A stretch of DNA of 35,826 bases, from the IMG/VR virus record IMGVR_UViG_3300036766_000216, positions 1 through 35,826 of that record; one strand, 5' to 3'. Position numbers and translations under genes: made by a program. Source of the stretch: a virus. Position 1 is the stretch's first letter; the number at the start of each line of letters is the position of its first letter. The notes beneath the pieces are model-generated. The model was given only the letters and a program-made list of their open reading frames with translations, did not search any database and was not told where the DNA came from. This document shows, one piece after another, positions 6,101 to 25,087 of this stretch.

Positions 6101-7308
6101 GCTTTGTCCGTTTCAAGCGGTAGAACGACTGCTGAGCGCCCAACGCCCGTTTGTGTCAGGGTAGAGCTTGTTTGTGGCACGGTCTGGGCGGTTGCTGAAC
6201 CTTCTTCTGGCGCTGTAAACTTTCTTCCTTCTTCTCCGGGGGCGTAAGGTGCTCTGGCGTAGATAAATTCTCCCGGATGCTCTGGGTCTGGGATAGGAAC
6301 TTCCCGCCTTGTATCGCTTAAAAAGTCGTTTGGGGGCAATAACTGGCGAGCTTGCAATCCCGTCTTAATACGGGAGGCTTCTGTCGCATTTTTCGCGGCT
6401 TCTGCTACTGCATCTTGATTCGCCATCTCTCTTGAGATCCCGCCTTGCGCATTTGGCTGTGGTGTTTCAGGTATCTCGTTTATTGCGGCTTCCGAGCGTG
6501 CTGAAAGATTTTCATTTATTTTTCGACCAACTTTTCCTGTCCCGACGATCCCGCCTAAGAATGAAATGTTCTTTGCAAGGTCGATGATCCTGTTCTTGTC
6601 TGCCTCGTTCAAGCGTGTGTAGTCAACGCCTTCTTTAGCAAGTAATCCTGTAATATCTGAGAGGACTGCACCGGCAAAAACGGGCGCACCAAATTTCAGA
6701 GCACTCCCGTATTGAAGTATCTTATCGGCAACAAGTTTTCCTTTTTCTCCACCGATGGAATTTCCGATTTCTTCAACGTGCGGCGCGATTGCGCTTACAA
6801 CTGCATTGACGCTGGCGACTGCGGGGATTAAACCTAACCCCGCTTCTGTGCCGCCAATACCGACATCAGCAGCACCTCGTAAGAGTTCTGCTGTGCGTGT
6901 TGGGGCTTCGCCGCCAATATCCCTTGCTCGTGGAGCACCTTGTGAGAGTCCGACTGCCTCTCCCATTCTGTTGATACCCTCGGCAACTTTTGGTATGCCT
7001 TCCGTAATAGGAGTGGTAACGCCGCGAATAGTTCGCTCAACCGTCTCTTGTCCAAGTTGTGCCATCTGTGGAGCAGTCTCACGAGAAACGGCAATGCGTG
7101 GATTGACTGCGGGAGGCGTGGTGAATTGTCTGCCGATAAATTCCGATGCCCTATCAAATAAGGATGGCGTGGCTGTCTGGTCTGCGGGAGTCGCGCCGTC
7201 CACCTTTTCTATACCAGAAAAATTGAACGGTTCGCCGGTGGACTTTTCTATTCCTGAAAAATCGTATGTTTTTGCCTTTTCGATTCCGGCAAAATTATAG
7301 GTGCTCAC
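133..7308 (-). CDS. Giant inner-virion / polyvalent-type protein, 2391 aa
   Basis: This is the largest gene. The start is GTG, overlapping the previous stop as GTGA. Three near-identical octapeptides of the form (Y/F)(N/D)F(S/A)GIEK open the protein (residues 4-11, 15-22, 28-35). A long, charged, Gln/Lys/Glu-rich low-complexity region follows. Around residues 1200-1500 there is a globular domain with the signature FLEEVQSDWAQ (about 1326), followed by a WHELAFRRMVRY segment (about 1400). I recall this arrangement from phage 'large polyvalent protein' type products. A hydrophobic module containing QL..DDD.KK occurs twice (about residues 1050-1100 and 1610-1670). The C-terminal third has a LLSSPKTHIVNMFSN motif (about 1906) and FIRTPMNILK (about 2130), which also recur in giant phage inner-virion proteins. 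Position after two smaller ejection-type genes matches the T7 gp14-gp15-gp16 order. A role as an ejected internal protein is inference; an enzymatic activity of the central domain is possible but unproven. Confidence 0.85.
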   Translation of the reverse strand: MSTYNFAGIEKAKTYDFSGIEKSTGEPFNFSGIEKVDGATPADQTATPSLFDRASEFIGRQFTTPPAVNPRIAVSRETAPQMAQLGQETVERTIRGVTTPITEGIPKVAEGINRMGEAVGLSQGAPRARDIGGEAPTRTAELLRGAADVGIGGTEAGLGLIPAVASVNAVVSAIAPHVEEIGNSIGGEKGKLVADKILQYGSALKFGAPVFAGAVLSDITGLLAKEGVDYTRLNEADKNRIIDLAKNISFLGGIVGTGKVGRKINENLSARSEAAINEIPETPQPNAQGGISREMANQDAVAEAAKNATEASRIKTGLQARQLLPPNDFLSDTRREVPIPDPEHPGEFIYARAPYAPGEEGRKFTAPEEGSATAQTVPQTSSTLTQTGVGRSAVVLPLETDKAAVIKGKGVLAGVNQLPEQAKNFDLPALPGETVDIPEWVKRPEAERTALVELAKNNGVDYTGTQKGFKDVPDLETFRDPETGTNFTMQKGETLPKAIERVRAKFAEGEAWKKEQGKVENVDTNKPLTENELASAIEVKEGGSSTFQKGGVDRYGNPPMTEAQKKQIDRAISEGKPIDAISKALDEQLAKAQKQEAILRKEGTGTNAYQNVRRILDKDIPQAKEYLASKSLAPQKTGKGEGTGKTPLRQQYDELLAKRLKGSGFESDMLSPVYRNAGQDAFNELKKITGRKDITFFDLDKPTTPPSTNKTGGEKVPEQGESGRYGNMRIPTQNKSAISAKESEFQRLIAERDTKIAEEKRIRKEGMSGKDPNAITKDEIPKEDVERYQKILDAAGTGIRVVGPDGKNLSIASIRKAIEEWDKDGGDAERSYRAQALISALKQADESGTVEIRPAEGIPHEQVPVDDLLGNLPEGSIGVPKEKAFVKEKLVEGNIKPAAQMEQRAKQNRAAEKKAADEAALSAAVGRRKQLQREIASEKAKPEQIAKAKQELSDVNKQIGKLRPAEDIFNTQEDLLTGEQNKLAPAYLLNDGTVVPAGSNVHTLPPGLKAEQIKDAGFVQNGKFLTGEEAAKRGNGKALLSLGLGAAYPVIDQLPIDDDKKKLLKALSLAGLGISLGMAVNSPKWFLKSAKALGEARQETFTPDQARGLFKEIKSEEMKWTGLDDFLREKSSKGEKVTKAELQDVIARNNVQVEEVEKGEKERQLAIFPDSKKRGYNIVDEKGDVVGVAPTEGEAKSLVTQMKQDRTSDTKFSSYQLPGGENYRELLLTLPEKQKTSLPQAILKITSPDGEVKEMSGTLDDMTAVEKRGQLKSEGYKYELILQGTKTVADWENNFRSSHFDEPNILAHVRFNDRTVDGKKTLFLEEVQSDWAQKGRASTFKGESRFSLVDNPDGTFSIERKGAGTREKFEDRGLAEAELKKLQESENQQAVPDMPFKKDWHELAFRRMVRYSSENGYDAIGWTTGSEQVGRYTESLRKAVDRIEWTKTKDGVHIIGWKDGQNAKKVADTFEQENAVSDAIGKSMADKIKNDPNQSGTIEGNDITISDTGMAGFYDKMLVNYANKFGKKFGASTADARIKTGAGEAAGIQEFIRWKKNKGYGGSATAEWQEKNNPVVKEFFREMPQGEPIHILPITPEMKKTANEKGMPLFSIGAGAGYLAVDQLNTDDDTKKKLKAVFGALALGGIAATLGKMSGTTIKSISQLGEEARGLVESGKLKSNEVAGWIRERVAKGREIPVAEKSQVTALAPKIEQGVALAQTAHDIKYAFNISKENLNIEPAEKSNLDAVVNRLKPILQREKGKPLTNAEVLDDAQTSDLLRRAISRDQTEKVTAAILKTRQAVAAGAQGKDVTRQFIDNIRVLSTYAADAGRRLQKFSIEADPSLANIKQAVIKKLVDLGMKTDDILKASEGVNFDNPMEVAGFYRQFIKPSWKDILDEYRYINLLSSPKTHIVNMFSNILQGGIIAPLTKLYQGGIDYVGTSISGRDRQVYVRSVPVYYKGLLHALPEAFKNATAVLKGEAFTLRPDLETIPAMGEGIEATNATSKIGKIAGTISRGASIGISKFNQKMRPVTTALEAADIYLQTLIKSGEREAISYRNTRQGKTMDPSLIDEEATQRAKEYLFRAELDPTNATGQGKILSWLDKGAAVAYKFRDLPVVGWTVPFIRTPMNILKQGLEYSPAGFATLIGSTQKQLQLAKAMVGSTVFAGAAALVFSNESTWEPPANPSEKKRFYDSGKQPYSVKLGDTWYSYSKLGVLAYPIALASAVKYHTEQSKQAGESNPLQKIESILSSQAKFFADQSYVQGISDLLDAVSKGELYDVDKLITNLPSQLIPLASLQNWVGNLVDPVYRKPKGFVQGLEMKTPFTRQFVPISDEQANRKVLGVPREMVNSFSPVQMSTDATSTLPYEARKTRRSALSRSILRQSLLNP

Positions 7309-8357
7309 TTAAAATGCGAATTTTGTTGTAAGAATAATTTTACCGCCTTGTCGCTTGAATCAAGTCCCTTGCTTTTAAGAAGTTCTGCCGCCTTCGATTC
7401 CCTTGTCCCTGTCGGAGATACAATAGGTTCTCCGCCAACTTCCTTCTTCAACTTATCCATCTGCGATTGGTAGGCATCGTACTTGTCGCCCATCATTTTT
7501 TTGTATTCGATGATCTGTCCTAAGTTGTTGAGCATCCCGCTTTTCGATGGAAGTTTCTGCCGTTCAATGGCATCTTTGTACGTTTGAGCGTCTTTCGCCT
7601 CGTACCTTTTTGGATTGCCGTCTTTGTCAATTATCTCAATCGATCCATCAGCGTTTCTTTTAACGCCGGATTCCTGCGTTGCAATCTCGACGTTGTACTC
7701 GTTGTTCTTGTTTTCCAACTGCTGAATTTTTTCTTGAATTTGACTTTTACGAAGTCCCGTACCTTTGATGTATGGGTCTGCATCTACCGGCTCTTCGCTT
7801 ATCACGGTATGCACGGGCTTTGCATTGGGGCTACCAAACTCATTCTTCTTGAAGTATTGCACTTCCTTTACGTCCTTGCCATCTTTCCTGTACTTTCTTT
7901 CAACTGGGACAAAACTATCGCCGTTCGGTGTTTCGGATGTCGGGGTAAGTCCCGCAGGCATCGGACCGGCTGTCTCTGGGTACAGTTCATATCCGCCCTG
8001 TGCATTTTTCACGGGCAGTAATTTTTGCGGGGTCACGGGTTCGGGCCGCGTAATTGCGCTGTAGAGTCCTGAGTAATCTCCCGTTATCGCCGCGATACGT
8101 CCGGCGGCCGCCGTGCGTGCGCTGTTTCTCCCAACCACGGTAGTAATTTTGTCAACCTGAGAAAGATCATTGGCCACGCCCTGCAATGCCGTTTTCCGTT
8201 CTTCTTCCTTCTGCTGCTTCTGTCTTGCAAGAGAATTGCGTAGATCATTGTCGACGAACTGATTCAAGGATTTTGAAAGCAGATCAAGGGAAGATGTGTC
8301 TTTAGGAGCGAATGAACCGCCCTGTGGATATTGTCTGGTGTTGTATAAGTCCTGCAT
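7305..8357 (-). CDS. Putative internal virion (ejection) protein, 350 aa
   Basis: A soluble, charged protein with strong helical and coiled-coil character at residues 20-65 and again around 195-225 and 270-310. There is no signal peptide or membrane helix. The start has an SD (AAGGAATTAG) just upstream, within the end of the preceding gene. Its stop overlaps the GTG start of the giant gene by 4 bases, so the two are probably translationally coupled. I recognise no sequence family. Its place between a small Gly/Ala-rich protein and a giant protein matches T7 gene 15 in the gp14/15/16 ejection set. That is positional inference only. Confidence 0.8.
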   Translation of the reverse strand: MQDLYNTRQYPQGGSFAPKDTSSLDLLSKSLNQFVDNDLRNSLARQKQQKEEERKTALQGVANDLSQVDKITTVVGRNSARTAAAGRIAAITGDYSGLYSAITRPEPVTPQKLLPVKNAQGGYELYPETAGPMPAGLTPTSETPNGDSFVPVERKYRKDGKDVKEVQYFKKNEFGSPNAKPVHTVISEEPVDADPYIKGTGLRKSQIQEKIQQLENKNNEYNVEIATQESGVKRNADGSIEIIDKDGNPKRYEAKDAQTYKDAIERQKLPSKSGMLNNLGQIIEYKKMMGDKYDAYQSQMDKLKKEVGGEPIVSPTGTRESKAAELLKSKGLDSSDKAVKLFLQQNSHFK

Positions 8358-8359
8358 GA

Positions 8360-9223
8360 CTAATTCCTTCGATAATTCAGATTCAGTTTCCGGCCATGGG
8401 GAACTGTTTGAGGTTGACCGTAATTCACTCCCGGCGTATTGATATCAAGCGGATTGAAATTATTTGGATCGAAACCCGGATTGACGACTGGCCTAACGTC
8501 GCCAACGTTGTTATCATAATTGGGTGCGACTGGTGTTCTTCCCCATGTGAGATTTTCTGGTACGGTCCCGGGTAATGGCGCCGGACCCGGCGCGTATGTT
8601 GAGCCGCCTCCCGGCGTTCTCGTACTCATTGCATTAACAAGATCACGGTTCTGTGCGAACTGCATTCCGGCGTTTCCAAGTTCTCCTACATAGTCAGTAA
8701 CAGAGGGTTGGATCGGTTGATCGGCCTGCATGTACTGGGCGTCTGCAATCATCTTGTCATATTCGGTGTTGATCTGATTGGATGCGCGTAAACTGGCATC
8801 GGTCAAATTTCTGGAGCTGTCTGATCCTTGATTGGCCAGTTCATTCTGGTTTACGAGGTAGTCTGCCTGATCTACACTCCTTCCACTTGAAGCACTTCGC
8901 CTGCCAATATCTGCTGCACCTTGTTTTATTCTTCCGGTGGTTGTGGTATTGATAAGTCCCTGCTGGCGGTCGGTTTCAGTGGCAAGACGGGCGAGAGCCT
9001 GTTGACGCGCTGCCTGACGCTGTTCAATCAACTTATTAATCCTGTCCGAGCGTTCGTCTTCGGGCGACTTTGAAGTGAACGCATCATAGAGCGACGCGAT
9101 ACCAAGCCCGGCTCCTACGGCCCATCCAACGGGTCCGCTTCCAGCAAGTGCGGCGATTCCCATTCCTGTTCCTGCGGCTCCGATCCCGCCTCTGAGTGCT
9201 GTTCCCCATCTGTTATTCGGCAT
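8360..9223 (-). CDS. Putative internal virion protein (T7 gp14-like position), 287 aa
   Basis: The N-terminus (residues 10-50) is a Gly/Ala-rich hydrophobic stretch (GGIGAAGTGMGIAALAG and following) that could insert in a membrane. A Gln/Arg/Ala-rich helical region follows (60-160), then a Pro/Asn/Gly-rich, probably disordered C-terminus. This composition is typical of the small ejection proteins of short-tailed phages, which form a channel in the outer membrane. The SD AAGGAG precedes the ATG. It lies directly after the nozzle-like gene and before the two larger internal proteins, which supports the assignment. No enzymatic motif is visible. Confidence 0.8.
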   Translation of the reverse strand: MPNNRWGTALRGGIGAAGTGMGIAALAGSGPVGWAVGAGLGIASLYDAFTSKSPEDERSDRINKLIEQRQAARQQALARLATETDRQQGLINTTTTGRIKQGAADIGRRSASSGRSVDQADYLVNQNELANQGSDSSRNLTDASLRASNQINTEYDKMIADAQYMQADQPIQPSVTDYVGELGNAGMQFAQNRDLVNAMSTRTPGGGSTYAPGPAPLPGTVPENLTWGRTPVAPNYDNNVGDVRPVVNPGFDPNNFNPLDINTPGVNYGQPQTVPHGRKLNLNYRRN

Positions 9224-9238
9224 GATGTTTAACTCCTT

Positions 9239-12200
9239 CTACAAATTCTGTAATTTTTTGTTTGGTAAAAATCCTAAGTCCAGCTCGGCCAAATCCAATC
9301 GGCCAACGGTGGAGGTACTATCAAGTGATATTTTTATACTCAGGCGGTCGATTGCGCCGCGTCTGTCAATCTCACGATATTCCATGATTTCATCGGAACG
9401 AACCAGGTGCGGGTCGAAGGACACGGTTTCTCTATTCGCATAAAAATCCACATTGAAGAGTCCGTATCCATCGCTGGAGTCCGCAGTAAAATCCAACTTA
9501 AATCCGTTGAGCGCGTTCTCAATAATTTTTGCGTTGAACAAGGCGATATTCATTTCAAAACTTGTCGGGACGATAAGCGACTGAGAGATTTCAAGTGCGG
9601 AGCCGTTGACTCTCACATCATCCTGATAGATATTTGCGCCTGAACGGTTGGGATATTTGAGGATTGATTTTTCTGTGCCAATCGTGAAACAGGTATCGCC
9701 AATGTTCTTTGAAAAATACCGTATGTCGTCTGTGACGTTCAGGATTCTTACATACCAGTTTCCGCGTTCAAAAGAGTAGCGGAAGCAACGAATCTCCGTG
9801 GATGTCGCGGTATTCACTTTCAGCCTCATCCAGAGTTCCTTGTAGAGATCGTTGTAACCGGCGATCATATCGTTGCGGTAGGTAGATGTTACATACTGGG
9901 TAGTGCCAGTCACAAACTGATTACCGGAATAGTAATTGTCCCACAAGGGGTTAAGTGAAACAATGGCGCTGCCGTCTATCGGAATTATGAAGATCGAGGC
10001 GTTGCCTCCGTAAATGATTCCGTAGGGAGTTGCAAGGATTGATTTCTTCGCGCATACGTCGGCCTTGTAGGTCCGCATGAACACGCCCTGAAGGTCGTAG
10101 GTTTCAATTGTGGACTTTCTAAATACGTGAATGATGTCGCTCAAGATATTCAGTCCAAGAATCTCTCCGGTGCCCTTAAATGGAATTTTGAGTTTGTTTT
10201 TGTTGTTATCGTTTCTTACGTCTGGGAAATTATCGTCTTCGTGATCGCCCGATCCGTTGTAGCTTGAGAGCCTTCCTGAGAGATCGCCATCGTCGATTAG
10301 AATAATTGCTCCATCATTTCTTGTGGCTGTTGTAGCAAATCTCGGAGTAGGATAGGTTCTTTCCATATCGACGGCGTGATTTAGTTCGTCGTTGATATTG
10401 ACCGCGCCTGCATTGACAGCCGTATCGTAATTTGTTGCCGAGGCTTCCATTTTATTCAACTGAGAAATATCATAGCCGTAGACCCCTTGCAAGGATTTTA
10501 AGACCGCGCTCTGGTCTGTCCATTCGGTTGCCAGATAATCGGTGTCCGTTGTCGCGCTCTGAATGGGAAGTGAAAAATGAAGAATATATTCCTTCGTCGC
10601 ATTCTTCCAGCCTTTTTGAACGATGGTCGAGTTTTGAAATACCGCGTACATGTAGAGGTGAGTCAGTTCCTTGTTCATCAGCGCAAATGACAGATAAGGT
10701 GTCAAGAGCAAGTCGGGCGGGGTGGTTGATGTATCACCCTGTAAAAATGCCTGCAAGATCGGATCGGATTCTTCATAGCCTCCGTAGCCTGCGGTGACGT
10801 AGACGCGGCCTTGGGAATAAACGGCGGTGGTGTCAATGCCGCCTTCGAGATCACGGACGGAACTCGGAACGGCTGTCGCGCCCTGAGACACATTTGAAAT
10901 TGCAAGCGTTCCAACATTAAATACGCCGATTACGAGTCCGGCAAAATTGTATTTGCTCCCTGCGAAGTTCGCGGTTATGGTAATAGTCCCGCCTGAATTC
11001 ACGGCAACATAGCGGAACAGCGACGCCAAATTCCAATCAGTGTTAAACATTGAAACAAGTTCATCGGCTGATGTAAATTCTCTCGCCCCTGCGTTGTAAA
11101 CTGCTTTCTTTGTGTAATCTACTCCACCAGTTCCATCTTCTGGGAAGAAATGAACCGTATCATTGTTCGTTGGCGCATTAAAAATAATCTGTCCCGTGGC
11201 TTTTGCCGTACTGCCATTGGAAAGATTCCCATAGAGATTCAGCCAGTTGCGTCCGGCTGTCTTATCGTAAATCTGTCCGATATTTTTGTAGACCGCGATA
11301 CTGCCGGCTGTTGTAGCTCCGTTGCCTGTTGAGGCATCGAGTTGAAATGTTGTGCCGTTGACTACCGTAATCGAGTAGAGATGATTGGCGTTGGTGTTGG
11401 TCGTGAACCCAGAACCGACTACAATATCTCCCGTTGTAAGTCCTGCGGTAGATGGAACAGTTACTACGATAGGTGCGGCGTTTGATGCTCCACTGGCCGC
11501 GAGGGTAGTGAAGTTCCCTCCACCCGGAGATTTTGGACTTGCTACCGATCCGTAGGTGGTTGCATACGGATTAAGAATACCAAAATCAGATTCAACGTAC
11601 CATCCGGCAAGAAGTGTACGAAGATATGTTGTGGTAGAAGAATCATAGAAATAGTTTCTCACATTTCTTCGCATGATCTGGAGTGCCTGATACTTCGTAC
11701 CGTCTGTGTGCTGGTGGAAAAAAATGAGTTTCCTTTGCTGCGTGACTTCCAGCCAGCTCACTGAGGGCGTTGCGCCGTGCGCGAAAGTGTAGTTAAACTT
11801 GATTGCCGGGAAGCGGTAGATTTGAATCACATCCGTTGCCACCCATGCAAGTCCGTTCGCTCCAAGAACGGTGTCGGTTGTCAGAACTCCAAAAGAACCA
11901 TAGACGCTGTTTGTGATAAATGCGGTTTCGTTTGATTGTGTCGTATTAAGTACGATCCACTTGTCAAGAGAACCATCAGCGTATGGATATGTTTCGGGAG
12001 AGGTTATGCCGTTTTCCTTTACGTTTTCAATATCAATTGTTTTGGCTGTGGCCGACGGAGTGGTTTTTATCGTCGCGGTGTAGTTTCGCGTCAGTTCAAT
12101 CCACTTTGATTTTTCCGTGGAGGCACTATCGTAAACGTACAGTCTTAGATTATCCGATGAATCTTTTCCCGCGACGATCTCATATTCACTCTGCGTGTCT

Positions 12201-12655
12201 TTATCGTAGAACGTGTACCCGTGTGAGATTGTAATTGGAGTTTTCGAGGCGATCCCGCCGGATGTGTAGGTATGAACAAACGCCGAACCTACAAGATCGA
12301 AAGTGTGCGTTGTTACTCCTGAGATCACCCACTTGCCGATTGCCTCTACCGTTCCCACAACCTCATCAATGTAAACCGTATCGCTGTTTGAATAGCCGTG
12401 AGAGGTCGCGGTGATTCTGATTAACCCCGATGCGGATGCGGCGCCGGAGATGACTTTGAAAACATTTGGTCTAATGGGGGGACAAGGGACACGCGCAATA
12501 GTTCCGTAGTCCCGTTGAAAAACGACCGTATCGCCTCCGGGACGCAAGCCTGTATTGTCTTTGAAGTAATTACTCTTCAAATCAACAGAGTCTTCATCCA
12601 GAATGAGGTCGCCATTGTTCTTGATGGAAAGTATGTTCAAATCTTTGGGCGTCAT
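9239..12655 (-). CDS. Putative tail nozzle / tubular protein with beta-propeller character, 1138 aa
   Basis: A large, beta-rich, soluble protein. Its C-terminal 400 residues contain regularly spaced short strands (for example ATPYGIIYGGNASIFIIPID and IRYFSKNIGDTCFTIGTE) like the propeller blades of P22 gp10 and T7 gp12 nozzle proteins. The N-terminal part contains two inserted beta modules: residues about 70-130 with ITATSHGYSNSDTVYI, and about 385-450 with VPSTAGLTTGDIVVGSG. The start lies one base after the stop of the preceding fibre gene. Position between fibre-like genes and ejection-protein genes fits a distal tail component. It could instead be a large tail-hub or stabilisation protein; no homology search was possible. 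Confidence 0.7.
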   Translation of the reverse strand: MTPKDLNILSIKNNGDLILDEDSVDLKSNYFKDNTGLRPGGDTVVFQRDYGTIARVPCPPIRPNVFKVISGAASASGLIRITATSHGYSNSDTVYIDEVVGTVEAIGKWVISGVTTHTFDLVGSAFVHTYTSGGIASKTPITISHGYTFYDKDTQSEYEIVAGKDSSDNLRLYVYDSASTEKSKWIELTRNYTATIKTTPSATAKTIDIENVKENGITSPETYPYADGSLDKWIVLNTTQSNETAFITNSVYGSFGVLTTDTVLGANGLAWVATDVIQIYRFPAIKFNYTFAHGATPSVSWLEVTQQRKLIFFHQHTDGTKYQALQIMRRNVRNYFYDSSTTTYLRTLLAGWYVESDFGILNPYATTYGSVASPKSPGGGNFTTLAASGASNAAPIVVTVPSTAGLTTGDIVVGSGFTTNTNANHLYSITVVNGTTFQLDASTGNGATTAGSIAVYKNIGQIYDKTAGRNWLNLYGNLSNGSTAKATGQIIFNAPTNNDTVHFFPEDGTGGVDYTKKAVYNAGAREFTSADELVSMFNTDWNLASLFRYVAVNSGGTITITANFAGSKYNFAGLVIGVFNVGTLAISNVSQGATAVPSSVRDLEGGIDTTAVYSQGRVYVTAGYGGYEESDPILQAFLQGDTSTTPPDLLLTPYLSFALMNKELTHLYMYAVFQNSTIVQKGWKNATKEYILHFSLPIQSATTDTDYLATEWTDQSAVLKSLQGVYGYDISQLNKMEASATNYDTAVNAGAVNINDELNHAVDMERTYPTPRFATTATRNDGAIILIDDGDLSGRLSSYNGSGDHEDDNFPDVRNDNNKNKLKIPFKGTGEILGLNILSDIIHVFRKSTIETYDLQGVFMRTYKADVCAKKSILATPYGIIYGGNASIFIIPIDGSAIVSLNPLWDNYYSGNQFVTGTTQYVTSTYRNDMIAGYNDLYKELWMRLKVNTATSTEIRCFRYSFERGNWYVRILNVTDDIRYFSKNIGDTCFTIGTEKSILKYPNRSGANIYQDDVRVNGSALEISQSLIVPTSFEMNIALFNAKIIENALNGFKLDFTADSSDGYGLFNVDFYANRETVSFDPHLVRSDEIMEYREIDRRGAIDRLSIKISLDSTSTVGRLDLAELDLGFLPNKKLQNL

Positions 12656-12656
12656 G

Positions 12657-13916
12657 TTAGATCACGAATGATTGTTTAATCCCAACTATGCCCGATACGC
12701 CATCAGCGCCGTCTGTGCCGAGCGTGCCTGTGACAACCGTTCCTTTTGTTCCCTTTGTTCCTGGCGAACCACCTGCGACTGAATACGTCCATGTAGAGGT
12801 ATCAAGTCCGTAGAAGATATTTATTCCTCCACCATTCCCGCCGTTGCCAGCAGCACCACCTCCACCACCACCGCCTACTCCGGTAGCGTTCCCGCCATTT
12901 CCACCATTGCCGCCAGTCCCACCGTTTGCAGAGATTGTCAAAGTTCCGGTAAGTACCCGAGCGATGATAACAACTTGACCGCCGTTGTTTCCTGCGGCAG
13001 CGCCTCCACCACCAGAGCCGAATCCTGTTCCTACTCCGCGACTGCCACCACCGGAACCACCGTTTGTTTGATTGTAAACGGGAGCAACTACGGCGCTTGC
13101 TGAAAATGCACGGGCTAAGACAGCGTTCCAACTATTTCTCATTGAACCGGATGTAGCGGGAAGTGCTGTGCCTGTAGCCGCGCCACCTGTTGCGCCGCCG
13201 GAATTATCGCCGCCGTGTCCTCCTTGCTTTCCTGCCAAACCAACTGCTGAGTTCCAATAGCCGCCCGCGATTGTTCCGCCAACCGAGCCTGCTACTGCCG
13301 CAGTAGAACCGTCACCACCATTACCTCCAGCACCTCCCGGCCCACCACCGGGTAAATATCCTCCCGTGGCATCGGCTGTGGCACTTCCACCAAGTCCCTT
13401 TGTCTGAGCTACTGCCGATGTTGCATTTCCACCAGCCGCGCCTGAATTATCAATCGTGCCTGCACCGCCAACTCCAGAGTTTGCAAATATCCTATACCCG
13501 GCGGCGGCGAGTGTGATTCCTGTATTTACCGTCAAGAGCGTGAAATATCCGTCCCTCAACAAGGTGTAATGTGTTGCGCTATCTTTTGTGAATAGTCCTG
13601 ATACGCTTGCCTGTGTTCCATCTAACGTGTAGGCTCCATCTGAACCGGTTCCATATGAGATCGTCCCTGCGACTCTTGGAATTGAATTTGAATCAATGTG
13701 CTGGCACGGAGAAAGCTCAGTTACCTTTGAACCGTCTTTGTAAATGTCATAGATGCCCGTTTCAGCAACGACCGTGTAGAGTCCGGCATTGATTTCCGTG
13801 AACGTCGCGATAATCGCCAGATCGGTTGCCGTATCACGGTATTGATACACCGCGCCCGTGATGGGAGTGCCATCGGCGTTGAACATCGGAAATATCTTTT
13901 TTGCTGTGGCTGCCAT
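12657..13916 (-). CDS. Glycine-rich tail fibre / adhesin-like protein, 419 aa
   Basis: Residues 1-160 form a beta-rich N-terminal domain (FTEINAGLYTVV, GIYDIYKDGSKV, LTVNTGITLAAAGYRIF). Residues 160-385 are extremely Gly-rich with many GGxGG and poly-Gly runs, alternating with short Ala/Asn/Thr stretches. This resembles the polyglycine-II helix sandwiches of phage receptor-binding adhesins such as S16 gp38, although the fold is only inferred. The protein shares its architecture with the 616-residue product just upstream and is its paralogue. The ATG directly abuts the previous stop (TAAATG). A receptor-binding or fibre-tip role is likely but not proven. Confidence 0.8.
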   Translation of the reverse strand: MAATAKKIFPMFNADGTPITGAVYQYRDTATDLAIIATFTEINAGLYTVVAETGIYDIYKDGSKVTELSPCQHIDSNSIPRVAGTISYGTGSDGAYTLDGTQASVSGLFTKDSATHYTLLRDGYFTLLTVNTGITLAAAGYRIFANSGVGGAGTIDNSGAAGGNATSAVAQTKGLGGSATADATGGYLPGGGPGGAGGNGGDGSTAAVAGSVGGTIAGGYWNSAVGLAGKQGGHGGDNSGGATGGAATGTALPATSGSMRNSWNAVLARAFSASAVVAPVYNQTNGGSGGGSRGVGTGFGSGGGGAAAGNNGGQVVIIARVLTGTLTISANGGTGGNGGNGGNATGVGGGGGGGAAGNGGNGGGINIFYGLDTSTWTYSVAGGSPGTKGTKGTVVTGTLGTDGADGVSGIVGIKQSFVI

Positions 13917-15767
13917 TTAGCTTAATTCAAAAAATAAGACTGCGCCATTGTTTCTGGTATTGGTTATCATATTCCCAGCTGAAGAGCGAGTGCCATCTCC
14001 GGGTTGTCCAAAACTCGCACCCCAATTACCAGTTCGAGGGAGAATTTGTCCTGTTCCGGGAATCCAGTTTCTATTACCTATCAAGTCTTTTGCGATTCCC
14101 CTGAGAATTAAGGGAGGCACGTAATCGTAATAATAAAGTTTCTGGTCTAGGTAAATCCTTGTGCTGAAATAAACATCTGCTTGATAATTCCCCTCGAATC
14201 CTGTTATGGGAGAAGTGATAAAAGTTTGATTTGCATTCGTATTGCCCTGTACACCACTTATCTCGAACGCAATAACGGGGTTTTGTGTACTAAACGGGGC
14301 AAAGTTGACCGATATGGGGCTAGTACCCTTTCCGGTCATCCCCGTTATAGGTAGCGGATCTGGAGTGGGGGCATTTTGAATTGGCCTGATAGGACAAAGT
14401 CCTCCACCACCTCCCATGCCACCAGAGACATCGAATGTTCCAGTAAACTGCGACTTGTCATAGTAGGCGATGTATTGTAAGCCACCCTGACCGCCTGCAC
14501 CACCACCACCACCGCCCCCATATCCGCAAGATGGAAATAATGGGGGGGGTGCCCCAGTTTGTCCCCAAAAACCGTCACCCCCTCTTGTTGAAAACTTTCC
14601 ATCGCCAATTATTCTCCTTGCGGCGACATAAAGTATACCAGCTGGAATTCCCGATGCGCCGCCGTCTCCACCCGCGCCTCCAACTCCAATTGTTACACTT
14701 CCGCCACCTTGACCGCCGCCGCCTCCACCTCCAGATATTTGATTGACAAAGAATACTTGAAGGCCGTTGAAAGTAAAGATTCTTCCAATTTCCGCTATTT
14801 CAAGCGTGTCAACGGAAACAACTGATCCTACAATCGAGGAAATTCCTGATATACCTCCAAGGCCTGGGAGTTCAATGGGAATTGTCAAGAAAGAAGAACC
14901 ACCTCCGCCACCACGACCGCTTAATACACTTGGAGAGAGAGATGATCTGCAATTTGTTCTTGCTGCGGCATCATCACCGTGGCCACCTGGCACATGACCG
15001 TATCCGGGAGTAAAAGTTCCACCACCGCCCAAACCTCCATTAGAACCAAAACCATGCGAGGGATAAAAACCGGACGCACCTGCTCCATTGTTTGCTATAG
15101 TGCCGTAATTATAGAGATTGTTTTTTACTGTGATTTTCCAGTTAGCCGCGTGAAGCGACACGCTTAGATAAAATGAAGCGTTTGTATGCACACCAAAATC
15201 TGTTGAACAGATCAGAAGTGTATCGCTCCCTACGCCTGTAACAATTCCTTTTTCGTCGCCAATATAGATTGTATCTCCAACGACAACATCAGATAAAAAA
15301 TGTGTCCCATTTCCGTTCACGGTTTGATCACCATCAGCAGTAACCGAAACTGTCCCGGACGGATAAAAAAACTTGTTCACGGTGAGATTGTTGTATTCCA
15401 TGTTTTTCGTGAGCAGTGTGGTCTGCGTAATAACCACATCTCCGTCATCTCCATTTCCTAAAACAGAACCCGGTGAACTTGGCACGGCGAAAGAAGCAGG
15501 ATTCAGGAATACCACTGGATCAGCGATACAGATAGGACTTATTGAATTCTGAAGAACGCCGTTCTTGAAAATGGAATATGTACCCCCTTCAACAAATTCC
15601 GAGTACTGTCCTGAGATATGTTCCCTGAGTTTGATTGACCCGGAAACAAGCAACTCCTCGAATTCGTGGAGTTGTAACTGCACAGTCTTTCCACTATCAA
15701 AAGCGCCGAGGCTTGTGAGTAAGAATAGATTGTGTTTAGCGCGTGCATTTTGTGTGCGAAAATCCAT
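13917..15767 (-). CDS. Glycine-rich tail fibre / adhesin-like protein, 616 aa
   Basis: A longer paralogue of the 419-residue neighbour. The N-terminal domains match loosely (REHISGQYSEFVEGGTYSIF against the equivalent EINAGLYTVVAETGIYDIY). The shared LTVN...W/YRI...GTI.N.G segment is split here by an extra module of about 65 residues (138-203, core NGNGTHFLSDVVVGDTIYIG). Residues 225-470 hold Gly-rich blocks with poly-Gly runs (GGGGGGGAGG type). The last 150 residues are a separate, less Gly-rich domain absent from the shorter paralogue, ending GAVLFFELS. The start abuts the preceding stop (TAAATG). Probably a host-contact protein or fibre; the C-terminal domain is the best candidate for specificity. 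Confidence 0.8.
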   Translation of the reverse strand: MDFRTQNARAKHNLFLLTSLGAFDSGKTVQLQLHEFEELLVSGSIKLREHISGQYSEFVEGGTYSIFKNGVLQNSISPICIADPVVFLNPASFAVPSSPGSVLGNGDDGDVVITQTTLLTKNMEYNNLTVNKFFYPSGTVSVTADGDQTVNGNGTHFLSDVVVGDTIYIGDEKGIVTGVGSDTLLICSTDFGVHTNASFYLSVSLHAANWKITVKNNLYNYGTIANNGAGASGFYPSHGFGSNGGLGGGGTFTPGYGHVPGGHGDDAAARTNCRSSLSPSVLSGRGGGGGSSFLTIPIELPGLGGISGISSIVGSVVSVDTLEIAEIGRIFTFNGLQVFFVNQISGGGGGGGQGGGSVTIGVGGAGGDGGASGIPAGILYVAARRIIGDGKFSTRGGDGFWGQTGAPPPLFPSCGYGGGGGGGAGGQGGLQYIAYYDKSQFTGTFDVSGGMGGGGGLCPIRPIQNAPTPDPLPITGMTGKGTSPISVNFAPFSTQNPVIAFEISGVQGNTNANQTFITSPITGFEGNYQADVYFSTRIYLDQKLYYYDYVPPLILRGIAKDLIGNRNWIPGTGQILPRTGNWGASFGQPGDGTRSSAGNMITNTRNNGAVLFFELS

Positions 15768-16694
15768 TTACAATAAGGCTTCTGCTTTGTCTTTGATGAC
15801 ATTCTCTTTTTCGTTGATGCCTTTGCTGCGATAGAGGGCGTTTATGGCGTCCATCATTTCTGCTTTATCGCGGTCTTTATCATTTGGAGTCCCCGGAGGC
15901 ATACGGGAGATGATTAACTGCTTCAGGGCGATAAGGCCGATCTGCACCATTGCGCCGTCAAGCAAAGGTAAGCGGTCTGTATCGGCAGTAATCATGGCAC
16001 AGATTCGCGGGCCTCTGAACGTTAGAGTGCCGTAGGAAGTAAGAGCGGTTTTCAAATAGACATTATCACCCACCAGATTCCAGACGATGCGGTTACGGTT
16101 CGCCGGGGCGGTCGTGGGGAAACGTCTATACGCCTCACTTGAAAGAACGTCCACAAAATCCGTTTCCGTTGAAAAGATTGTGAAGCGGTTTATCAGGTTC
16201 GAGTAGCGCAGGAGTTTTAAGCTCGAAATATCTACCGAGTCGCCAATCAAGGTTGAGCCTATCAGCCTGACATCGTTCACGGTTGCAATATCCGCCGGGG
16301 GAACGTCGCCTTTGACTGTAATCGAAGTAGCGCTTACATATTCATCGACTGAGCAGAGATAAATCAGTGGTCCGGTATTATTCGTGATGACGACTGCCTT
16401 GCCTTTATCGTTTGCGGTAAAGGCCGTGTCCATCGTTGCTGTTAAAGTGCGCGTGGCAGACACGTACGATGCACCGGAGGAATAACGGCGCCCGGTTTTA
16501 TTGGGAACCATGTCGGTATCTTCGGTATAGTATTCGGCTACAAGGTCTGCAAACTCTCCCTGCACCCTTTGAAATATCCGGTTGGAGAGTTCGAAGCGTT
16601 CGTTGTAGATTGGAGAGTTCTGCTCGAAATCATAGATGTCGGCAGTCGCGATTCTCCAGCCAGATTTGACGGTATAAAGTTGTGAGCCTATCAT
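15768..16694 (-). CDS. Putative tail/adaptor structural protein, 308 aa
   Basis: Helical N-terminus (NERFELSNRIFQRVQGEFAD, residues 31-50), a beta module at about 75-150 (TATMDTAFTANDKGKAVVI core), then a globular region and a charged C-terminal helix with K/E/D pairs. The order of helical ends around an inserted beta module is the same as in the next two upstream genes. The start overlaps the previous stop as ATGA. I do not recognise a named family. Its place in the run between the capsid/decoration genes and the fibre/nozzle genes suggests a head-tail or tail-assembly component. Confidence 0.75.
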   Translation of the reverse strand: MIGSQLYTVKSGWRIATADIYDFEQNSPIYNERFELSNRIFQRVQGEFADLVAEYYTEDTDMVPNKTGRRYSSGASYVSATRTLTATMDTAFTANDKGKAVVITNNTGPLIYLCSVDEYVSATSITVKGDVPPADIATVNDVRLIGSTLIGDSVDISSLKLLRYSNLINRFTIFSTETDFVDVLSSEAYRRFPTTAPANRNRIVWNLVGDNVYLKTALTSYGTLTFRGPRICAMITADTDRLPLLDGAMVQIGLIALKQLIISRMPPGTPNDKDRDKAEMMDAINALYRSKGINEKENVIKDKAEALL

Positions 16695-17569
16695 TTGAGT
16701 GATGCTCCTACAAGTTGAGTCGCAAGGGCGTTAATGGATTGGCCGCCCTGCTCTGATGCGATTGCCTCTGCGAGTTCAAGAATTTTCGGGTACCAGTCAT
16801 CGTTGAATGTTTCGACCGTGGTTCCATCCAAAACGTGCGAGAGACTGAAATTTGTTATCCCGGAATAGTAGAGAATATATGTCGAGGCATCCAGAACGTT
16901 GGTCGAGCCTGTCAAGGCGACAAATGTAGTCCCGTAATCGAATACCATGCGGTTTGTTGCGCTTTCCAAATCCTTCAAACGGGCGATCATTGAAACGGGA
17001 TTAGTGGTGATCTGTGCGCCTGAAGAATCTTCCAAGCGCCATACTTTGATAAAACCTGTGGGCTTGGTGGCGATCCCGGAAGCAAACTGAAATGCCGCGT
17101 TCTTTGTGATCGTCCCTGAGATCACGGTGGCTTTCAGGAATTCCGGGTAGGACTTATCAATCGCGTTTGCAAGTGCGAAGCGGGCTTCGTTGTAAATGTC
17201 GAGTAATCTTTGCGCGAGGAAATTTGCGGCACCCACGCTTCCGATAAGGGCTGGCGTACATGTCCCGCCCGTTCCCGCACCATTGCTTGCCACGACGATT
17301 GTGAATGTAGTAGTTCCCGTTACGGTCACAGTCCAATTAGGATTAGCCAGAGTGTTGTTGACCATCGTATTTGTGGCAACGCCTGTGATATAGACCTGAT
17401 TGCCCGTTACGAGCCCGTGTGCGGTGGCGGTCGTGATGATACTTGGATTGGCGTTTGAGGCAGTACTGATGACAATAGCAGAAGAAGAGTCGTTGAACTT
17501 CTGACCCTTCTTTGTTCCTCCGGGGGAAACCCGAAGTGCCAAACGGAATAATTGTTGCTGAACTGTCAT
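16691..17569 (-). CDS. Putative head-tail adaptor-like protein with inserted beta module, 292 aa
   Basis: Residues 1-30 are basic. Residues 40-108 form a Thr/Asn-rich module with ITTATAHGLVTGNQVYITGV and VTVTGTTTFTIVV; I recall this 'HGL..G..V.I.GV' type as recurring in phage structural proteins. From residue 110 a mostly helical and beta core follows (LAQRLLDIYNEARFALANAI; YPKILELAEAIASEQGG) of the kind seen in small adaptor proteins that bridge portal and tail. The SD GAGG lies about 8 bases before the ATG, and the stop overlaps the next gene (ATGA). The adaptor role is inferred from position and helix/strand pattern. Confidence 0.75.
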   Translation of the reverse strand: MTVQQQLFRLALRVSPGGTKKGQKFNDSSSAIVISTASNANPSIITTATAHGLVTGNQVYITGVATNTMVNNTLANPNWTVTVTGTTTFTIVVASNGAGTGGTCTPALIGSVGAANFLAQRLLDIYNEARFALANAIDKSYPEFLKATVISGTITKNAAFQFASGIATKPTGFIKVWRLEDSSGAQITTNPVSMIARLKDLESATNRMVFDYGTTFVALTGSTNVLDASTYILYYSGITNFSLSHVLDGTTVETFNDDWYPKILELAEAIASEQGGQSINALATQLVGASLK

Positions 17570-17585
17570 TGAGGAAACCTCGTTA

Positions 17586-18692
17586 TCAATTTGTGTCTAC
17601 TGTTACTCTCGTCTTTGAGGGCGTATTGTTTTTCAGGGTGGAGATATATTCGCCAAAGGTAGCAAGAGCCTCCATCGCGCTTTTGGTGTCCTTCAATTTT
17701 TTGTAGAGGCGGTATTTCGCCCATTCTTTTATTGCCGGTTCATATTCCTGAGAAAGAGGAATGTTTGCCGTCAGCGCTACCGACACATAAGCCCTCGGAT
17801 TGACCTGAATAAAGCCGAAGATCGTAATGGTTTTATCAGTCCCAACTGCGGGAAAGATTTCCAGATACTTTCGTCCAGCGATATTGTCCCAGACACTAAC
17901 GCAAAGCGGCTGGCTATAGTTTGAATAGGCGGTGAGTCCGAATGTGGCCTGTTTTTGTTCCTGCAAAAGCTCGTTTGATACTACCGCCACGGGAAGGGGG
18001 ACTATTCCTTCAAGCCTTGTAATTTCCTTGATGTTGTAGAACTTCGTAGGAATCTCTGTAACAACGGTATCGACTGTGAAGGCTTGTGTTGATTGGGGCG
18101 TTGCATAAGCAACGGTCACTGTGAGGTTGTAGGCATCGGTGATCTCATCCACGATGCGCGAGACACCTCCAACGACGATCGTACTTCCCGGATTGACTTC
18201 CTTTGTGAATTTTGTCGAACAAATCGAATATGCTGACGCGGAAAGATCGCTATCAAATTGGCCGTCAATCGTGCAGATTGTATTCGAGGTGATTGAGGCG
18301 ACCATCTTCTTCTGTGTCCCGACAATAATCATCCTACCTACTTGCAAGTACGTCAAGAATGTTGAACCCGATCCGGTGACATCCTTACCAGATGTTGAGA
18401 TTGTTCCATCGCCTGCGATTGTAATACCAGTGACATCCTTGTTTGAAACATCGACCGTGCCTGTGCCTGTCACTGGTACGGTGGAATCAGAGAAGAAATA
18501 CTCAGTCTGATCGACAAGGAGCCGCAAGTCCGTTTTTTGACGGACTGGATAAAGCGAGGTTATCCTTTGGCAACCTTGAAGGATGTACCCCTGAATCGCT
18601 TCGGGAGATACAAGATCGATCTGGGAATCTTCAATCTCATCCTGGATGTCGTTGATCAGGGATTGGTAGTCAGAATAGTTGTACGTGCTCAT
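17586..18692 (-). CDS. Putative head-tail adaptor with inserted beta module, 368 aa
   Basis: The N-terminus is helical (YSDYQSLINDIQDEIEDSQI, residues 6-25, then EAIQGYILQGCQRITSLYPV), as in phage head-tail adaptors. Residues about 95-160 carry a module of type TSGKDVTGSGSTFLTYLQVG with MIIVGTQKKMVASITSNTI, and a further beta segment (about 160-200) follows. The core then resumes with a beta region (NIAGRKYLEIFPAV) and ends in helices (EYEPAIKEWAKYRLYKKLKD). The ATG abuts the upstream stop (TAAATG). First of three consecutive adaptor-like genes downstream of the head genes. Function is inferred from layout. Confidence 0.75.
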   Translation of the reverse strand: MSTYNYSDYQSLINDIQDEIEDSQIDLVSPEAIQGYILQGCQRITSLYPVRQKTDLRLLVDQTEYFFSDSTVPVTGTGTVDVSNKDVTGITIAGDGTISTSGKDVTGSGSTFLTYLQVGRMIIVGTQKKMVASITSNTICTIDGQFDSDLSASAYSICSTKFTKEVNPGSTIVVGGVSRIVDEITDAYNLTVTVAYATPQSTQAFTVDTVVTEIPTKFYNIKEITRLEGIVPLPVAVVSNELLQEQKQATFGLTAYSNYSQPLCVSVWDNIAGRKYLEIFPAVGTDKTITIFGFIQVNPRAYVSVALTANIPLSQEYEPAIKEWAKYRLYKKLKDTKSAMEALATFGEYISTLKNNTPSKTRVTVDTN

Positions 18693-19345: not shown

Positions 19346-19870
19346 TTACGCCGTTACGATCCTGTACCCGAGCAGATACACCCATTTAAGAGCTGCTGAT
19401 CCCGTTGCATAGGATTCCAGCGCAATCGCAGAAGTGTTCCCGCCTAAGATGATCCCCGTCCCTAAGACGGAAGATGTTGCAGTGGCCGAGGTTTTCATTG
19501 TGAAATAGGTCGGGGAAGCGTTTAAGACTTCCAGTTGATCGCCCTTTACAATGTCTGTCCCGCCGTAGCTGTTTGCCTTTACACACCCTCTCACGGTGCA
19601 ATACCCCCATGCCCCTGCCGCGACCGTCCCTGATGGGTCATCGACTACCGCAATAAGAACGGAAGCCGTTGCCATCGTAGAGGCTGCGACAAGAATAGGC
19701 CGGAGGATTGGATTCGATGAGTCCGTAATATCAACTTCGGTAGTGAGCGTGAAAACGTCACCGTTGGTCATTACGGTCGAGTGATTGTAAAAGCGAACCT
19801 GTACTTTGTCCTGATCGCCGCACAAATAGGGTATTCCCCTAAAGGCAGCTTCATCATAGTTCGCTTGCAT
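19346..19870 (-). CDS. Capsid decoration-like protein, second tandem copy, 174 aa
   Basis: Paralogue of the gene directly upstream: same length, the same start (MQANYD), and long shared blocks (VDITDSSNPIL, TMATASVL, VRGCVKAN, LKWVYLLG). By eye more than half the residues are identical. The protein is Gly/Thr/Val-rich and beta-rich, with GD turns, as in phage cement and decoration proteins. It lacks a signal peptide and membrane helix. It lies between two minus-strand terminators and so forms its own transcript segment. An SD-like AAAGAGAAA precedes the ATG. The decoration role is inferred from composition and its place next to the capsid gene. Confidence 0.8.
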   Translation of the reverse strand: MQANYDEAAFRGIPYLCGDQDKVQVRFYNHSTVMTNGDVFTLTTEVDITDSSNPILRPILVAASTMATASVLIAVVDDPSGTVAAGAWGYCTVRGCVKANSYGGTDIVKGDQLEVLNASPTYFTMKTSATATSSVLGTGIILGGNTSAIALESYATGSAALKWVYLLGYRIVTA

Positions 19871-19899
19871 AGGTTTTTCTCTTTCTTTGAAAAATGTTA

Positions 19900-19927
19900 T
19901 AGAAAAACGGGCGGTGTATTGCCCGTT
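19900..19927 (-). terminator. Rho-independent terminator between the two decoration genes
   Basis: Seven-bp stem AACGGGC / GCCCGTT (19921-19927 and 19906-19912), 8-nt loop, followed by a run of T on the minus strand (TTTTTCT including the stem end). It lies in the 64-nt gap between the tandem paralogues, so the second copy should be transcribed less than the first. Confidence 0.8.
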
Positions 19928-19934
19928 ATTATTT

Positions 19935-20459
19935 TTACTCCGTTGCGGCTACGACAACACGTTCACCGAGCAAGTACACCCACTTGAGAGCAGGTGTAGT
20001 ATCGGTTGTCCATGTTTCGAGCGCGATTGCGCCCGTGTTTCCACCAAGGATTACACCAACACCGGCGGTAGCGGCTGTTTTCTTCACAAACGCCGTCGGA
20101 GTTGCGTTCACGACTTGCAGCTGATCGCCGTAAGCAATGTTCGTCGTTCCGAGAGTATTTGCTTTTACACAGCCACGGACTTTCGCCTGACCCCACTTCC
20201 CATCTGCGACTGTTCCATTTGGATCATCAACGACCGCAAACAAAACACTTGCAGTCGCCATTGTGGAAACAGCTACGAGAATAGGGCTGAGGATTGGGTT
20301 CGAGGAGTCCGTGATGTCAACTAACGTGGATATTGTCTTCACATCACCATTGGTTAGGGTGTTACCGGTGTTATTGTAAAAACGGATATACACATCGTCT
20401 TGATCGCCTTCCAAGTATGGAATTCCGCGAAAAGGAGCGCCATCATAATTTGCTTGCAT
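19935..20459 (-). CDS. Capsid decoration-like protein, first tandem copy, 174 aa
   Basis: Beta-rich, Gly/Thr/Val-rich protein without signal or membrane segments. It is near-colinear with the copy downstream; differences cluster at residues 30-45, 85-120 and the C-terminus. A good SD (GAAGGGAA) precedes the ATG. It lies close to the capsid gene, separated from it by an endonuclease gene that may be a later insertion. Likely a capsid cement or head-decoration protein. Which of the two copies is the major virion component cannot be read from sequence, but this copy lies before the intergenic terminator and should be made in greater amount. Confidence 0.8.
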   Translation of the reverse strand: MQANYDGAPFRGIPYLEGDQDDVYIRFYNNTGNTLTNGDVKTISTLVDITDSSNPILSPILVAVSTMATASVLFAVVDDPNGTVADGKWGQAKVRGCVKANTLGTTNIAYGDQLQVVNATPTAFVKKTAATAGVGVILGGNTGAIALETWTTDTTPALKWVYLLGERVVVAATE

Positions 20460-20477: not shown

Positions 20478-21326
20478 CTAATTGAAAATAATTCGATCTA
20501 CTTCGTCGGCTTTTCTTCCCTTCCCGACGAGAACCTCACATTGAGAAATATCGTTGCGATGACCTTTTTGATATTCCCCAAGAGCTTTGACTTTCGCCTT
20601 TGTCTTTTCACTTTTCATAAGATGAGCGCCTTTTATTTCTACCAAACTTCTTGTGCCATCGACATAGATAACCAAGAAATCAGGCTTATATAATCGGCTC
20701 CCTTCAAATTCGTAGCGAATGACATATCCTTTCGGTTCATATTCCCACCTGAGGACGTTAGAGCTCGAGTCAAGCTCCTTCATATACTTCAGTTCGTAAG
20801 ACGAGCGGTAAAAAACCTCTTGATCCAACTTCGTAGAGAAGTATTTCCCCTGACTGTATTGATGCGTTGTAGAGAGCCGTTCTATCGCTTTACGCGACAT
20901 TGATTCCAAGCACTCCTTACTTCGCTTTACCATGTTCCAGGGATGGCCGCCGAATCTCTCCAGCGTCGTTTTCTTTCTCTTGTCTTTTGTTTCTTGAGAT
21001 TGTTTAATCCCGCGTTTTACGTCTCCGACACTTCGTATATGGATGTTCAGTTCTTTTAACCTACGCATGATCGGCAATCGCCCTATTCCCATTTCTTTGC
21101 TGACTAATCTTGTGTGAAGATTTTTATTCACATAGAGGTCAATCAACATCGAATCCATTTGAGGGGAAAATCTCACCGTATTCCAAACTATGTCGGTTCG
21201 CTTTTTCCTGTTCACGGGTGATTTGCGTTTTTTACCGCGCATGGAAGCAACACGTTTTTCAATGTGTTCTTTTGTTTGCTTCCTACCCGTTAATGAATGG
21301 GGAAAGTTTAATTGTCGATTATTCAT
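20478..21326 (-). CDS. Free-standing homing-type endonuclease (NUMOD3-like motif, HTH, PD-(D/E)xK nuclease), 282 aa
   Basis: Residues 9-35 are a short basic repeat-type motif (HSLTGRKQTKEHIEKRV) like the NUMOD3 DNA-binding element of homing endonucleases. Residues 55-100 look like a helix-turn-helix (LVSKEMGIGRLPIMRRLKEL). Residues 170-235 hold a complete PD-(D/E)xK core: RSSYE (E178), YKPDFLV (D216) and LVEIKG (E230, K232). This combination suggests a sequence-specific endonuclease. It sits between the capsid gene and the decoration gene, a common landing site for homing endonucleases. Its ATG lacks a good SD, unlike its neighbours, consistent with low expression or later arrival. No intron or split gene is visible next to it. 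A packaging-related nuclease is a less likely alternative. Confidence 0.8.
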   Translation of the reverse strand: MNNRQLNFPHSLTGRKQTKEHIEKRVASMRGKKRKSPVNRKKRTDIVWNTVRFSPQMDSMLIDLYVNKNLHTRLVSKEMGIGRLPIMRRLKELNIHIRSVGDVKRGIKQSQETKDKRKKTTLERFGGHPWNMVKRSKECLESMSRKAIERLSTTHQYSQGKYFSTKLDQEVFYRSSYELKYMKELDSSSNVLRWEYEPKGYVIRYEFEGSRLYKPDFLVIYVDGTRSLVEIKGAHLMKSEKTKAKVKALGEYQKGHRNDISQCEVLVGKGRKADEVDRIIFN

Positions 21327-24960: not shown

Positions 24961-25014
24961 TCGACACCTATCTCTGAAATGTTTTTGAAATTAGGACACT
25001 ACCCAAATTCTTCG

Positions 25015-25087
25015 TAGCGACGACAGGACTCGAACCTGTGACCTCAAGAGTATGAATCTTGCGAGCTACCAACTGCTCTACGTCGCG
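25015..25087 (-). tRNA. tRNA with CAU anticodon (tRNA-Met, or Ile2 type)
   Basis: A full cloverleaf can be drawn: D stem GAGC/GCTC with loop AGTTGGTA, anticodon stem CAAGA/TCTTG with loop TTCATAC (anticodon CAT), 5-nt variable loop, and T stem ACAGG/CCTGT with loop TTCGAGT. The acceptor pairs at six positions, but position 1 (C) faces U, so there is a 1:72 mismatch; the discriminator base is A. The anticodon stem lacks the three G-C pairs of initiator tRNA. CCA is not encoded. The stop codon and last bases of the upstream gene lie in its 5' end. A lysidine-modified Ile tRNA is the alternative. Confidence 0.92.

Follow-up and report, generated by a model that had tools for sequence, protein, structure and literature searches.

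The analysis concerned a short-tailed phage whose tail-ring, nozzle and fibre proteins are best read, with a probability of roughly three in four, as carrying small six-stranded barrels of two kinds that have been inserted or appended, would serve external contacts and were acquired separately. The window (the whole stretch of DNA analysed, a virus record of 35,826 bases) encodes the phage, and its recognised products include the portal, the major capsid protein, the large terminase and an internal virion protein of 2391 aa. The minus strand carries the tail genes, transcribed in the order 368, 292, 308, 616, 419 and 1138 aa (products are named here by length, and all tail gene and module coordinates given below for the window refer to the minus strand).

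Several other features of the window were recorded. Downstream of the major capsid gene lie two adjacent genes for 174-aa proteins (19346-19870 and 19935-20459) that are 68% identical, a tandem duplication; the pair (19346-20459) perhaps encodes head decoration proteins. Between the capsid gene and this pair, a 282-aa protein (20478-21326) had PHROG matches of head-closure, endonuclease or Holliday-resolvase type and is possibly a homing endonuclease. A tRNA-Met gene (25014-25087) was located among small genes between the portal and capsid genes.

Module A (IT.A.HG) was common to the 292- and 1138-aa products (BLASTP E 8e-6) and module B (V.G.GT.FL) to the 368- and 616-aa products (E 2e-4), both in searches against all tail proteins of the window and both as the original prediction had it. 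Iterated profiles returned clear domain matches, placing A once in the 292-aa and twice in the 1138-aa protein, and B twice in the 368-aa and once in the 616-aa protein. Two of these copies had been missed at first reading (A at residues 387-454 of the 1138-aa protein; an N-terminally shortened B at residues 155-207 of the 368-aa protein), and a weak A-like stretch at the C-terminus of the 616-aa protein (residues 474-525) had also gone unreported. Window copies were 31-39% identical in pairwise comparison. Five module-bearing products had been claimed within 13917-18692; the 368-, 292-, 616- and 1138-aa proteins are clear cases, while the 308-aa segment fits neither kind well, and the 368-, 292-, 308- and 616-aa genes lie inside that span while the 1138-aa gene (9239-12655) lies outside it. 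Treatment of A and B as one sequence family was rejected (profile-profile probability <2%); they have overlapping structural neighbours (E1, phi92 endosialidase, LKA1 gp49 and two tail tube proteins) and no demonstrated common ancestry.

Built from ten phage A modules, a profile matched E1 enzymes in their FCCH domain (E 3e-9 to 2e-5) as well as phage structural proteins of solved structure (E 0.004-0.008). The 292-aa protein was modelled with AlphaFold, template-free and from an alignment of phage modules only. Its module was matched to many E1 structures (Z 10.7-12.6, rmsd 1.5-1.9 Å, 74-80 residues; best Z 12.6, rmsd 1.7 Å over 77 residues) and has the FCCH barrel fold; endosialidase barrels were matched as well (3ju4, Z 7.9; 4hiz, Z 8.8). 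Scores of the window copies against Pfam E1_FCCH (PF16190) were 16.6-21.4 bits, below the gathering cut-off of 29.5 bits, which A relatives in other phages exceed. The likeness to E1_FCCH, a family annotated in phage tail proteins too, is one of sequence profile and fold, whereas the phage copies differ in sitting in tail proteins without ubiquitin chemistry. Pfam already implies this relationship, as do annotations of phage genes that read 'FCCH domain ubiquitin-activating enzyme E1'; a literature search on phage FCCH domains found nothing relevant.

A seven-member B profile matched the distal tail protein gp20 (PDB 23gd) at E 4.1e-8 and the F2-pyocin side fibre (25ve) at E 3.6e-6. Neither was used to build the profile, whose outside members were first found at E 0.01-0.9 and then confirmed by iteration. 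In both matches the domain is N-terminal, whereas B is internal in the fibre-like and adaptor-like window proteins. The B model (residues 91-150 of the 368-aa protein) gave six-stranded barrel matches and resembled tailspike insertion barrels and the P22 coat I-domain. Listed fold matches included other phage barrels, 23gd and 25ve not being among the matches listed, and most had middling Z. The LKA1 gp49 tailspike insertion barrel scored Z 9.5 but with rmsd 4.9, the P22 coat I-domain Z 6.2 (rmsd 2.8) and E1 FCCH Z 6.3. The LKA1 and P22 folds have been likened to each other and are six-stranded barrels likewise inserted into an unrelated host fold (PMC5701251); their likeness to B is one of fold, at middling Z.

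Structure prediction of one protein per kind (292 and 368 aa) supported the proposal that the segments are independent domains and did not contradict a shared fold, both being small barrels. Blocks of A had pLDDT 77-98, and ten-residue blocks across residues 91-150 of the 368-aa protein, most of B copy 1, had 69-96, while most of the host sequence fell below 60; the host parts of the two models were poor (mean pLDDT 55 and 61).

In the 368-aa adaptor-like protein (17586-18692), two B modules separate the N-terminal helices from the C-terminal part. Copy 1 (residues 94-157; 18222-18413) was supported by profile match, pLDDT and barrel matches; copy 2 (residues 155-207; 18072-18230) was found by profile (E 1e-6), lacks the first strand and falls in a low-confidence region of the model. 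Against SU10_adaptor (PF24175) the protein scored 32.8 bits (E 1.2e-7), exceeding the curated cut-off of 27 bits, over residues 186-355, a span that partly covers the second B module; the C-terminal part alone scored 20.9 bits. An adaptor of this family would have a four-helix bundle with fibre-dock strands and form a dodecameric ring on the portal. The model has helices at both ends (residues 6-22, 30-47, 299-308 and 315-356) and pLDDT <50 over much of the host part, and it places the B modules after the N-terminal helices and before the next strands. Adaptors of SU10 and T7 are built of a helix bundle, a dock for fibres and a part that embraces the portal; their nozzles have a platform, a beta-propeller and other domains (PMC9509320, PMC6702177). 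By the model, the modules would lie near where the fibre dock would be.

In the 292-aa protein (16691-17569), module A (residues 33-105; 17255-17473; assigned by profile and E1 FCCH fold) stands between the first and second predicted helices (residues 3-13 and 111-140), and confidence in the model is confined to the module and the following helix. Outside the module, Pfam and PHROG gave no convincing family match; the protein is possibly a second adaptor-like ring protein. The 308-aa protein (15768-16694) likewise had no convincing Pfam or PHROG match. Its residues 79-132 (16299-16460) form a divergent B-like segment that matched the B profile weakly (9.7 bits; 0/2000 shuffles as good), did not fit A, and had no match at E 10 when searched against phages. 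The 1138-aa protein carries both of its A copies by profile: residues 68-136 (12248-12454; 52% identity to a module in MW202742) and residues 387-454 (11294-11497). Its module was matched in tail tubular protein B and in phage stabilization (P22 gp10-like) proteins. Outside the modules no nozzle family (T7 gp12 or P22 gp10-like) was detected, Pfam giving FCCH only and PHROG nothing; size, position and module context make the protein a probable nozzle or tail hub.

The 616-aa Gly-rich fibre-like protein (13917-15767) contains module B at residues 136-202 (15162-15362; profile), and its PHROG tail fibre match falls on the module and just upstream of it. Its A-like stretch (14193-14348) is weak, and 0/2000 shuffles scored as well. 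The 419-aa Gly-rich fibre-like protein (12657-13916) carries no module and had been proposed as a paralogue with an empty site, from which the insertion could be read. This held for the right flank (11/2000 shuffles as good), but the left flank was at chance (1108/2000). No mutual BLASTP match of the two proteins was listed at E 10, and the joined flanks of the 616-aa module had no match in phages. Long Gly-rich stretches were observed in both proteins (12657-15767). Direct relatives of the 292-, 368- and 1138-aa proteins were not found in viral contigs, nor those of the 368- and 292-aa proteins in phages, where the 1138-aa protein matched by its module only; among TerL relatives, none of the five tail proteins was found. 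Because no module-free relative of its own proteins was found in viral contigs or phages, the insertion is not directly readable in the window phage.

Both modules are mobile between unrelated phage tail proteins (nozzles, adaptors and fibres). The sequences fetched, window included, held 118 copies of A in 95 proteins and 136 copies of B in 130, counts that come from motif-based fetching and hence are not frequencies; the extra B copies were retrieved with a DNA pattern, alignment searches having yielded none. Host proteins of A matched tail, tail spike, tail fibre and virion structural families (Phage_nozzle in 4/50), and B was found at N-termini (residues 7-62) and in the interior of larger proteins. 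Among phages with T7 gp11/gp12- or P22 gp10-like adaptors and nozzles (HTVC010P, MW202742 and MW202510), the nozzle carries A, as does the adaptor of MW202510, but outside the module these proteins have no sequence similarity to those of the window. The MW202510 adaptor shows a clean insertion, A interrupting a stretch that eight relatives have unbroken. A candidate for a second adaptor with B at the 368-aa site (locus L218) was rejected, its flanks aligning to the 368-aa protein no better than shuffles did (181/1000 and 340/1000 as good).

A and B occur together in two proteins, structural proteins of ~870-880 aa at loci L108 (2998-5652, minus strand) and L125 (2-2617), with A near residue 170 and B near residue 420. 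At a further locus (L048), which resembles the window, four A copies are spread over three ORFs (2641-3624, 5235-7454 and 7548-9449). Domain mosaicism, in which one domain is common to otherwise unrelated phage proteins, has been described, with receptor-binding, neck passage, endolysin and replication proteins as examples of ongoing shuffling (Smug et al., 2023; PMC10684548). The phenomenon is the same here, the difference being that a single phage has it in adaptor-like and nozzle-like proteins; the window is a case of ordinary phage domain mosaicism across phages, not a new system.

Under the preferred reading, tail proteins would have gained, by insertion or appending, A modules of the E1-FCCH type and B modules of the type seen at the N-terminus of some distal tail proteins and side fibres. 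The barrels would stand on the tail exterior, those of the adaptor close to the fibre dock, and may offer fibres or adjacent subunits more surface for contact, possibly with weak glycan binding. A role as host-surface glycan-binding domains that tune adsorption, as in the K1F endosialidase, is a tentative and rather less probable alternative. The endosialidase matches of A suggest it, as do the pectate-lyase, lectin-like or carbohydrate-binding domains borne by some A host proteins. In K1F the barrel serves as a site for polysialic acid (PMC12632334), which for the window modules is a lead. A shared fold, however, shows no function; B is often placed at the extreme N-terminus, the usual anchoring end of a fibre, and adaptors and nozzles are not usual receptor binders.

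Lateral spread within one virion operon had been suggested as the origin of the copies, and copying between neighbouring genes would account for several copies in adjacent genes. By rank, the copy in the 292-aa protein and the second copy of the 1138-aa protein stand fairly near (9th and 17th of 117), and a weak 70-column tree did not reject one origin for all three A copies (AU p 0.25). Against this, each copy was closer to modules of other phages than to those of the window: by alignment score the window's own copies ranked 9th-117th of 117 for A and 56th-135th of 135 for B, a ranking that may be biased, since the patterns used to fetch comparison loci were close to the 1138-aa copy for A and to the canonical motif for B. 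The low pairwise identities given above also argue against copying within the operon. When module DNA was compared between window copies no nucleotide similarity was found, and the module borders held no repeats beyond chance. In GC the modules are close to their host genes. Closer outside relatives, lack of DNA similarity and lack of border repeats together favour separate acquisition, short of proof, and make copying from gene to gene improbable. Most likely, the copies were acquired separately from a common phage pool.

That the similarity is merely compositional, as short, low-complexity-like Thr/Gly/Val-rich beta segments with such modest identities might suggest, is hardly credible given the E-values of the profiles, the shuffle tests, the homologues of solved structure and the confident models, which refute it for the main A and B copies; the weak copies, in the 308-aa protein and at the 616-aa C-terminus, may yet be of that kind.

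The link to E1 extends beyond the window. One phage tail-type module (locus L031, ORF 2152-4662, residues 601-676) is 45-47% identical to animal E1 FCCH domains over 60-67 columns. The E1 FCCH sequences group on their own in a largely unresolved tree, and a review counts the cysteine and FCCH domains of E1 among those found only in eukaryotes (PMC11354881). Derivation of the eukaryotic E1 FCCH domain from a phage pool of mobile tail barrels is an unlikely, if conceivable, extension of these data.

The window provides a compact, checkable example of barrels from two sequence families used as plug-in parts within one virion. The annotation 'ubiquitin-activating enzyme E1' on phage tail genes reflects a shared barrel and not ubiquitin chemistry, and a large phage family exists against which the origin of E1 FCCH can be tested.
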